Shown here piece after piece: positions 22,713-31,896 of a stretch of 64,000 nucleotides of DNA. A program made the position numbers and the translations under genes. The DNA comes from Apostichopus japonicus (taxonomy: Eukaryota; Echinodermata; Holothuroidea; Aspidochirotida; Stichopodidae). The notes beneath the pieces were generated by a model, which was not told the DNA's origin, made no database searches, and worked only from the letters and a program-made list of their open reading frames with translations. The stretch is taken from positions 17,775,501 through 17,839,500 of the forward strand of contig NC_092569.1 of NCBI RefSeq assembly GCF_037975245.1, written 5' to 3'. The stretch's first letter is position 1. Every line of letters begins with the position of its first letter.

Positions 22713-25700
22713 ATGTTGTACTTGTTTAGAAGACATCGTGGAGGTTTAACCTCTCTGTTTCTCATCATTTTTATTTCCAGCAGCGTGTCTTCTCAAGGAG
22801 GGGTAAGTTTTTCCCTTTTATTTTTAATATTTCAGTCGTAACATCTGTCAAATTACCGTTTCGATGTTAGTTCCCTTAACTACTATACCAATGACTCTGT
22901 ATAAAAAACATCTTACGGAATTCTTCAATTGAAGTACACGTAATGACTGGATATGAAGTTAATCTGCAAAATATCGAGGCACTCTGAATTGTAAATTACA
23001 TTGGTCGTTGAAAATGAGAAGATACGGAGTGTATTTTGCTAGCTGCGATGTGTACTGTGTATGCCTAAATTATTGCGAGTTATATATACGTAATATTTTG
23101 ACCGACATGAAGGAATTAAAAAGAATATTCCAATAGTAAAAAAATATACACCTTATGGATGTCAAGTTATCGCCTCGTTATTTGATTTTTCTCTATTCGT
23201 TAAGCAAATAGTAGTATAGAACACATTTACCAACTGGTATATTTTATATTATTTCCTAAATTCCTAAAATAATGACTTTTAGAAAAAACTCAGACGGATT
23301 CCTTTAATCGAAGTACAAATAATTACTGTATATAAAGTTAATCTGCAAAATTTATACACATTTTGAACTGTAAAATGCATTGTCATTGAAAATAAGAAAA
23401 TACAGAGTATCTTTCGTTAGCTGCGTTTTGTACTTAGTATGTTTGAATTTATGCGCGTTTTTGTTGAAGAATAAGCCTCATATCTTGCAGGCACGTATAC
23501 TAATATACCACATCATAAACAGTAAGTCGTTATTCTTAAATTACTCTATAACAGCTAAACTTTATATTCATACTTTCTGAAGTCTTACTTTGTTTAATTT
23601 TATATACTGGATGGCAATGGGAGAGCTAACTTCTAAATATTATTCCACAACAATTTACACAATAAATTGATTATATAAAATCATATATTATTATATAAAA
23701 TTGAAATAAAAAAATATCGCATATATCGTTTACGACATAAGATTCATTCTTAGAATTCTTTCTTAAAAACAAAATCGAACAAATGACAAAAAAATCTTTA
23801 TCAGTTTTGTGTGATTGCTTAATTAATAAATTTCTTTGATCTTAAAAATCCCGATCCGACTCATACCTTAATTAACGTTGGAAAGATATGACTTTTCATA
23901 GACCACTGCTAATTATAGGAAACATTTTGTAACATTAATTCTGAATTGTTTCTTTTAATATGTTAATTTCAATATATTCAAATGCCGCTATCATATATAA
24001 AATATTCAGCAAAAGAGAAATCATGGCTTCGAAAATTTGGTTTGCTAACATTTACTTACCAGTTAGGAAAAAAGAACGAAAAGCAACTGCACATTTTCTG
24101 TCCGTCATTTATTGACTTCGAAGGTTCAGTCGGTGTAATTTTAAATAGGTATTTGAGAATATTCAGCTTTGATGAACATCTGCCTTCTTGAAAACTTTAG
24201 CATTATCTTATAAACACAAAGTGGATATGGAAGGGTCATTTTGTGGAGTGTCACTTGTTTGTTTAAGTAAACAAATCATTCTAGAACAATTGTCTATTCT
24301 GTCTCTGGGAACGCAGTGTAATAGTTGATTGTGTCCCTCAAATTCTACTTTATTGGAAAATCATGATAACGTACCGTAGTAGTTAAATACTTATTATTAT
24401 TGTGACAAACTATTTCGAAAAAAGTCATTAAGCAGGATGCTAACTATTGAACTTTTTGTTGGACAATCATGAAAATGTACCGAAGTAGTTAAAGACTCTC
24501 TTTTATTGTGTCAACCATTTTATTGAAAAGTCATTACGCAGGATTTCAACTCTTTTCTCCTCAATTAAAGTCTAGGTTAGAATAGATAAAATAAGTCAAC
24601 CTCCATTCATAAACAGTTCCTTTAGTTGCATGACAATTGATAAATGCATATCATTTCCATTTGTTTAAGATGTCCATAAATCGTTCTTTGATCTGACAAA
24701 CAGTATAGCGTATTGTGTACATTTTGTTCATTGTAATATCAAAATGCGTTATTTTGGTCTAACAAAAATGTTTAATTTGCCTTTCCATGGAATTTAATGC
24801 TTCGTATGCGCTAAATATGCATAGTCGATACAAATTAAATAATTCCGTTATACACTAAATACCCTGTCGACTTAATTAACGACTTAACTAGTATAAATTA
24901 TTAAGTTTGTGTACTAAATTAATATAAATGAACGATTACAATGAAGTAAGTCAAACTATATACTGACTTTACTCATCAAGACGTTGCTGTTGTAAGAATT
25001 GTCAACTGATTTAATCGCTGATATCGTTGTCGGTACTTTTAGGAAAATTTGCTATATATATAAATATACCAAATTTATCATTTGCGCCACATACCAAATA
25101 TATTTATCATCGTTGTAAGAATAATATCAGTGTTGTAAGAATTGACTGTTTATCATTTATCAATTGCTGTTAAAAGGTGCATCATTGGCCGTAGTAAGGA
25201 TTGTCAATTGATTTAATCATTGATGTCGTTGTCGGTTCTTTTAGGAAAATATACAAAATAATGTTATCAAGACGGTACTTCCTTTCATTGCAGCATTTTT
25301 TAACGCGCTACAAAGTTTCATCATATTTACGCTTATCCCAAACAGCTGTAAATACAAGTAAAACTAATTAGTTTCTATTAATAGTCACCATCATTTAATG
25401 TGTGTAAAAGTTACATTTTTTTCTTCATTTCCAATATAAATAATGAGTTCCATTTTATCGTAATTCGTGAATACACAATGCAGAGGTGAAATTTGCAAAG
25501 AATCTCTTTAATGAAAAATGTTCATGTGAATTAATTGAATTACATATTGCATTAGAAAAATACTATATTTTGAAGGTTTACACGTTTCTTTCATAAAATT
25601 ATATTTTCCACAAGAAACTCTATTGAACAGAATATATTGTTTTAAACTACAAAGAAGGCAAAACCTAATAGAAATAGAGTAAATATTTATTGTCTAGAGG

Positions 25701-31700: not shown

Positions 31701-31896
31701 TACACGAGATCGTGACAACGATGGTTATTCTTATAATTATGCCGATTATTATAAATCCGCATGGTGGTATAATTATAATTATTATTGTGACCTCAATCGA
31801 CGGTACACTGGATCTTATACCATTTATTGGTATAACTTCCCTGGCGGTAATTACAACATAAGGTCAACAGAAATGAAAATACGACCTCGAACCTGA
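22713..31896 (+). CDS. FBG gene copy B: secreted half-FBG/TIL/VWC-EGF/FBG protein
   Basis: Eight exons, all GT-AG: 22713-22802, 26054-26099, 26725-26894, 27476-27740, 28328-28542, 28803-29108, 29840-30107, 31661-31896; 531 aa. Residues 1-30 form a signal peptide with a basic start (RRHRGG) and a hydrophobic core (LFLIIFISSSV). Residues about 58-190 carry an FBG start and middle ([33 protein letters not shown]) but no P subdomain. Residues 191-262 are a TIL-type module ([21 protein letters not shown]). Residues 263-320 are a VWC/EGF-like cluster ([21 protein letters not shown]). Residues about 325-531 are a complete FBG with calcium motif DRDND and end TEMKIRP, but the loop after it is Tyr-rich and the canonical NCA cysteine is NYA. 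FBG lectins of the ficolin/FREP kind bind carbohydrate or acetyl groups on microbes; that role here is inferred. AATAAA signals lie at 32373 and 32399. Confidence 0.88.
22803..26053 (+). other. Intron 1 of copy B
   Basis: A 3.25-kb AT-rich intron, nearly colinear with intron 1 of D. It lacks a roughly 250-bp segment present in C and D just after the donor (compare 41645-41880 and 58420-58660). It holds a short open frame at 23982-24191 that is kept in D but broken in C and is probably fortuitous. Confidence 0.7.
31661..31896 (+). CDS. Terminal exon of copy B: FBG calcium site and Tyr-rich loop
   Basis: The exon starts in phase 1 after TCTTACCTAG. It encodes GYDAM, FSTRDRDND (the calcium-binding acidic motif), a 21-residue loop with nine tyrosines, then CDLN, YTGS, YWYNFPGG and TEMKIRP. 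Canonical FBG domains have two cysteines here, in NCA and C-H-x-S-NLNG contexts; only one remains. The loop DNA is low-complexity TAT/AAT/ATT, which suggests growth by slippage. Confidence 0.85.

Follow-up and report, generated by a model that had tools for sequence, protein, structure and literature searches.

A half fibrinogen domain encoded before a TIL-type exon in tandem FREP genes of Apostichopus japonicus

Introduction

The locus described here raises the questions of whether a FREP gene carries two fibrinogen (FBG) domains of which the first stops short of its P subdomain, how such a gene could have arisen and what its product would do. FREPs were described as the most expanded family of the sea cucumber Apostichopus japonicus, located mainly on LG02 with one tandem cluster of 21 genes, and as raised in visceral regeneration (PMC5638244), and this expansion is repeated in a preprint on Holothuria glaberrima (PMC13228809). 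The available passages of the former report link the expansion to regeneration and do not describe the domain build (PMC5638244). A half-FBG before at least 215 TIL exons, seemingly of single origin, together with variable loops in the FBG behind it, would give the FREP expansion a concrete and testable form, namely a stalk that changes slowly and a binding head that varies.

The analysis was performed on a stretch of 64,000 nucleotides (RefSeq assembly GCF_037975245.1, contig NC_092569.1, positions 17,775,501 to 17,839,500, forward strand), referred to below as the window. A first-pass annotation, made from the sequence alone, had placed in it three readable copies (A, B and C) of a gene with the order half-FBG, TIL, VWC/EGF-like part and full FBG, and a fourth copy (D) matching through exon 4. 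The reading favoured here, at a probability of about 0.55, is that these copies belong to a family of secreted FREPs that multiplied in tandem, in which an N-terminal part that changes slowly is combined with a variable FBG head.

Results

Architecture of copies A and B

Copies A and B (Table 1) each consist of eight exons, separated by introns that are all GT-AG and joined in matching phases into one open frame, which gives a product of 531 aa in A (exon start phases 0,0,1,0,1,0,0,1) and a similarly built product of 542 aa in B. The order in both is signal peptide, linker, FBG subdomains A and B without P, TIL, TILa/EGF and complete FBG. The products of A-type genes are probably secreted, as judged from the signal peptide read by eye.

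Both products were run against Pfam, as had been suggested, and two Fibrinogen_C stretches and TILa were found above cut-off in each, together with EGF_3 above cut-off in B and below it in A. The second FBG spans positions 10/11 to 221 of the 221 of PF00147 in A and B and is a complete Fibrinogen_C domain. The first is incomplete: exons 3 and 4 of A match positions 2-131 of 221, and the P part is thus absent. The predicted model of exon 4, built from this exon alone, aligns to residues 194-285 of human fibrinogen gamma. The Pfam TIL cut-off was passed in copy C and at locus L075 (contig C15), and TIL is absent from the matches of A and B; the TIL exon of A aligns with that of C, with most cysteines kept. 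At E values up to 1, no VWD, C8 or Ig domain was matched by Pfam in A, B or the first 335 aa of C. The half-FBG architecture of A and B is confirmed at the DNA level, the proposed order being intact in both with splice sites, phases and Pfam domains. For the part labelled 'VWC/EGF-like', TILa plus EGF_3 is the better name.

Table 1. Positions of the gene copies and of associated features, numbered from the first letter of the window.
Feature	Position	Strand	Exons, basis or remarks
Copy A exon 1, signal peptide (30 residues)	22713..22802	+	Open frame, GT donor; signal peptide by eye
Copy A exon 2, short linker	26054..26099	+	AG/GT borders, phase
Copy A exon 3, FBG subdomain A of half-FBG	26725..26894	+	Splice borders, Pfam
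Copy A exon 4, FBG subdomain B of half-FBG, end phase 1	27476..27740	+	Splice borders, Pfam, model
Copy A intron 4, expected place of P exon	27741..28327	+	Fibrinogen_C match absent, three forward frames
Copy A exon 5, TIL-type cysteine-rich, start phase 1	28328..28542	+	Alignment; Pfam TIL in copy C and L075
Copy A exon 6, TILa + EGF_3-like + subdomain A of second FBG	28803..29108	+	Splice borders, Pfam
Copy A exon 7, FBG subdomain B of second FBG	29840..30107	+	Splice borders, Pfam
Copy A exon 8, P subdomain of second FBG, stop TGA included	31661..31896	+	Splice borders, Pfam; varies between copies
Copy B, 542 aa	41491..51311	+	41491-41580, 45361-45406, 46143-46312, 46891-47155, 47748-47962, 48223-48522, 49259-49523, 51034-51311
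Copy C, divergent, damaged	8681..17675	+	8681-8773, 9757-9814, 10134-10285, 13175-13439, 14170-14384, 15485-15786, 15947-16210, 17368-17675
Copy D, exons 1-4	58273..63409	+	58273-58362, 62082-62127, 62395-62564, 63145-63409; remainder past window end
Inverted decayed duplicate of the region around the P exon of C (17346-17943)	19867..20454	-	85% identity, 601 aligned columns

Search for a P exon of the first FBG

Intron 4 of A, B and C was translated in three forward frames each, and no Pfam FBG match was found in the nine translations; the two weak matches obtained were both to unrelated families of unknown function. Among the listed matches, seven of the 215 gaps between a half-FBG B exon and the following TIL exon were shorter than 236 bp, the length of the P exon of A (shortest gap 162 bp), the gaps being measured between matches and therefore overstating the introns where a match ends before its exon does. 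No P match fell inside the 71 B-TIL gaps compared with 34 out of 152 P matches. A hidden P exon in intron 4 was rejected on the absence of FBG in A, B and C and on the seven gaps genome-wide that are too short for it. The claim that the first FBG ends after its middle exon agrees with the Fibrinogen_C match and with the scanned introns. At the DNA level, the intron scan and the short gaps contradict the presence of a P exon overlooked between exons 4 and 5.

The half-FBG could also be completed by a P exon that both domains share, if skipping of exons 5-7 produced a short isoform ending in exon 8; the domain would then be incomplete in the long isoform alone. Phase 1 is shared by the end of exon 4 and the start of exon 8, exons 5-7 total 789 nt (A) or 780 nt (B), each divisible by three, and skipping would keep the frame. 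Joined exons 3, 4 and 8 score as one complete Fibrinogen_C domain, with 185.7 bits in A and 168.6 in B, as compared with 175.8 and 160.6 for the annotated second domain, respectively. However, the phase match follows from the exon phases of FBG and hence is not independent evidence, and constraint has been retained on TIL and on the B exon of the second FBG (see below). A shared P exon is considered unlikely.

Copies C and D and the local array

The order in copy C, with its exon 7-8 borders read by eye, is that of A and B. Its exon 6 has 302 nt with a frame change, no GT follows exon 7 and an in-frame TAA lies in exon 8, and copy C looks like a pseudogene, unless the assembly is faulty there. 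Of the three copies first called readable, A and B stood as such, and C agreed in order but is damaged in sequence. Stop-free relatives of its half-FBG B exon (80-91% identity) were found nearby at C9:17943075, 18003985, 18171028 and 18243260. The match of D through exon 4 was borne out; D runs on past the window end, directly beyond which its TIL, TILa/EGF, FBG-B and P exons were found (L069). The first exons of A, B and D are spaced by 18.8 and 16.8 kb, and the flanking DNA is repeated.

Beside the array, a BTB-BACK-Kelch gene of KLHL type was found in two long open stretches at window positions 2085-4747. An open frame of 262 aa on the minus strand (55594-56382) gave no Pfam match and, by eye, resembles part of a mobile element. 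Neither Rfam matches nor tRNAs were found within the window (0 and 0).

Extent in the genome

TIL exons were searched with two queries, both from half-FBG genes, and the best 150 of 562 and the best 150 of 522 candidates were pooled into 260 distinct listed exons, which are biased towards kin of the queries and are no fair sample of TIL exons. For B exons three queries were used (best 150 matches each; every row of two and 33 rows of the third). A half-FBG-type B exon was located on the same strand within 3 kb upstream of 215 of the 260 listed TIL exons (within 1.5 kb in 212), and 215 is here an exon count, not the number of proven working genes. Among the matches listed, 213 of these paired TIL exons are on C9 and two on C20; pairing by round was 71/150 in the first, 199/260 in the second and 215/260 in the third. 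With the lists of two B-exon queries, a B exon on the opposite strand within 3 kb was found for 0/260 TIL exons and a downstream one within 3 kb also for 0/260, and because of these two zeros the lists are taken to be selective for B exons of the half-FBG type over those of the second FBG.

The remaining 45 listed TIL exons are unpaired, and one of them (C9:15651135) has a broken half-FBG B exon (L036). No FBG exon was found in the 3.0, 2.4 and 2.5 kb upstream of TIL at C15:5017787, C2:13338622 and C7:15874043, respectively. The gene at the C15 position (L075) has the order TIL-TILa/EGF-FBG. Among the TIL loci fetched, 29 of 30 have a B exon, TIL, TILa/EGF and a B exon on one strand, the exception being L027. 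The complete order, up to and including P, was followed in A, B and L072 and also in D, with its two parts joined across the window end; some copies have broken exons (C, L018, L036 and L037).

The exon for TILa/EGF/FBG-A has at least 150 scored relatives (1157 candidates) on C9, C15, C2, C20, C22 and other contigs, and among the matches listed it occurs on more contigs than the paired half-FBG. At C9:10030340-10081344, seven FBG B-type matches with open frames of 179-184 aa, four of their intervals being about 2.6 kb, are paired with no listed TIL exon. In viral contigs, five stretches fitted a pattern for relatives and none was confirmed.

Constraint and variation between copies

The dN/dS values (NG86) between A and B were 0.25 for the half-FBG, 0.26 for TIL, 0.64 for the TILa/EGF exon, 0.29 for the second B exon and 0.65 for P. 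Between A and D they were 0.83 for exon 3, on four differences, and 0.40 for exon 4; against copy C, silent sites are saturated. Close copies were taken from C9:17.80-18.54 Mb, exons with stops being dropped and L087 being omitted from P as a member of another cluster, and the half-FBG B, TIL, TILa/EGF, second B and P exons were represented by 23, 23, 24, 24 and 15 sequences, respectively. In the same order, mean pN was 0.036, 0.043, 0.102, 0.083 and 0.154, and pN/pS was 0.36, 0.27, 0.40, 0.23 and 0.55. As judged from these ratios, the half-FBG is under constraint, though it is not the most constrained part, with pN/pS above those of the second B and TIL exons. That it differs least between copies is due in part to a silent divergence that is likewise low: in this set pS is 0.10 in the half-FBG B exon as compared with 0.36 in the second B exon. 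The low value suggests conversion or exchange between copies, as if the two halves of the gene had been converted or exchanged separately.

The half-FBG might instead be a functionless leftover of a fusion, tolerated at the N terminus, with the second FBG doing the work. In known FBGs, ligands and calcium are bound by the very subdomain that it lacks, which is in line with this, as is the A-D value of 0.83 for exon 3 on four differences. However, the A-B value of 0.25, the pN/pS of 0.36 among 23 copies and the retention of a half-FBG upstream of 215 of the 260 listed TIL exons stand against such a by-product, which is regarded as quite improbable.

The most variable part between copies is the P exon of the second FBG, in two loops rich in Tyr and Ser. 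P exons were compared in 16 sequences, namely A, B, D, L072 and 12 hand-picked from the best matches. One loop, of 12-16 residues, follows the DxDND motif and the other, of 6-19 residues, follows WW, with pN/pS of 0.85 and 0.80, respectively; their composition is Tyr 41%, Ser 17%, Asn 9% and Asp 8%. For the two loops together pN/pS was 0.81 (bootstrap 0.63-1.18), as compared with 0.43 (0.34-0.52) in the rest of P. Positive selection in the loops is not supported, their pN/pS not exceeding 1, and relaxed constraint with slippage of TAT/TAC repeats could thus account for the variation. The loops contain no cysteine in 11 of the 16 P exons, two in five (L081, L084, L087, L088 and L089) and never one, a pattern suggestive of disulphides more than of drift. 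Of these five, however, L088 and L089 are closely related, and one further cysteine of L087 lies outside its loops. P exons with these loops are located at window positions 31661-31896 and 51034-51311 and at L069, L072 and L079-L090.

Origin by exon joining

In A, B and C, the border between the FBG B exon and the TIL exon is in phase 1 on both sides. A tree was built over 89 columns, which the program flagged as few, from 63 B exons of this genome plus two human segments (65 rows). All 28 half-FBG rows (27 different) are on one side of a branch with support 100/96, and the second-FBG B exons are placed apart from them. The tree does not support the half-FBG as a recent copy of the second FBG of its own gene. 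Adjoining the half-FBG rows, with support 95/83, is L008 (C9:16.70 Mb), of which the A exon starts nearly as the half-FBG does (SSYFFYQ and SSFFFYQ, respectively). In the L008 cluster, compared by eye, 17 B-exon matches have a P match 1.2-1.6 kb downstream; for L008 itself, no P was found in the 1.58 kb downstream held by its locus. SSFFFYQ as a compensating N-terminal strand special to the half-FBG is doubtful, since L008, in a P-bearing cluster, starts SSYFFYQ.

Exon shuffling at the phase-1 FBG border, as first proposed, is supported by the phases in A, B and C, by the C15 gene without an upstream FBG and by the B-exon tree. The first FBG exons of a FREP lineage would have been joined once, at the phase-1 border, to a TIL-TILa-EGF-FBG gene of a type like L075 on C15, and the joined gene would then have multiplied in tandem, mostly on one contig. 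A single origin of the half-FBG followed by amplification is the simplest history, the single origin being supported by the tree of 89 columns; the reverse may instead have occurred, with P lost and the half-FBG lost later on C15.

Discussion

Proposed function

In the favoured reading, the half-FBG, TIL and TILa/EGF would make up an N-terminal part rich in disulphides that serves assembly and spacing, and the second FBG, in which two P loops differ in sequence and length between copies, would serve as a recognition head. Such proteins would probably act in the humoral recognition of glycans of microbial or tissue origin, as part of defence or of wound repair. The stalk and head roles and recognition, including ligand binding by the second FBG, are put forward here by inference. 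FBG lectins bind ligands in the P subdomain, which binds ligands and calcium in known FBGs. The calcium motif DxDND, counted against FIBCD1, is kept in 15 of the 16 P exons (L081 differs), and the first canonical P cysteine is present in 2/16 (L084 and L087); because it is lost in 14/16, the classical lectin pocket may not work.

The TIL exon could alternatively be the active part, as a protease inhibitor that the FBG parts target to surfaces or clots, and the Pfam TIL match in copy C and L075 fits this. However, A and B fall below the Pfam TIL cut-off, and TIL is here followed by TILa, a pairing that is usual in large mucin-like/VWF-type proteins and is structural there. An inhibitor role is judged distinctly improbable beside that of a secreted FREP with a variable head.

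A misreading of two adjacent genes as one, namely an FBG fragment gene and a TIL-EGF-FBG gene such as the TIL-TILa/EGF-FBG gene on C15 with no FBG exon in 3.0 kb upstream, has very little chance of being right, given that in A and B all junctions have GT-AG borders and phases that fit, and that the order is conserved across many copies.

A more far-reaching view, offered with little expectation that it is right, is that these arrays, with at least some two hundred loci, make up a recognition repertoire encoded in the germline, with the half-FBG as a polymer-building assembly device. Each gene would then contribute a slowly changing N-terminal part and an FBG head with two varying P loops. Tyr and Ser, in which the P loops are rich, are also abundant in many antibody loops. 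In human fibrinogen gamma, the central subdomain has a five-stranded sheet whose central strand consists of residues 407-416 of the C-terminal subdomain (PMC7659954). According to the same review, pull-out of this strand was reported without compromising the structure, and its uptake by a neighbour is proposed in storage disease (PMC7659954). Because the strand-giving C-terminal subdomain is absent, the sheet of the half-FBG would have an open slot, which could accept the C-terminal strand of the second FBG of a neighbouring molecule and so lead to polymers; by this analogy, the half-FBG is a possible strand acceptor. It would also be a natural test of an FBG B subdomain without P.

Relation to known systems

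The family is of a known FREP kind, and its half-FBG/TIL/TILa-EGF/FBG order is apparently undescribed in the open-access literature. The first-pass annotation did not recall this order from known FREPs, and no description of it was found in open-access papers either (titles, abstracts and some passages). The published sea cucumber FREPs, compared by description only, are alike in being an expanded, clustered FBG family, and the available passages on them describe no half-FBG, TIL or TILa (PMC5638244). Biomphalaria FREPs are likewise a diversified FBG family, with a partial fibrinogen domain, considered truncated, reported for one FREP of Biomphalaria sudanica (PMC10875847); they combine IgSF with FBG, whereas A, B and the first 335 aa of C gave no Ig match.

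The succession of TIL and TILa is also found in VWF, zonadhesin and IgGFc-binding proteins, but here it occurs without VWD or C8 and with FBG on both sides. FBG lectins and receptor ligands (FIBCD1, ficolins, tachylectin 5A and angiopoietins) differ from the present family, in which the whole FBG is preceded by a half-FBG and the first canonical P cysteine is missing from most of the 16 P exons. The second FBG of A-type genes aligns with FIBCD1 from its B part to its end and with tenascins from the A part onward, and the half-FBG aligns with the A and B part of the FIBCD1 and tenascin FBGs.
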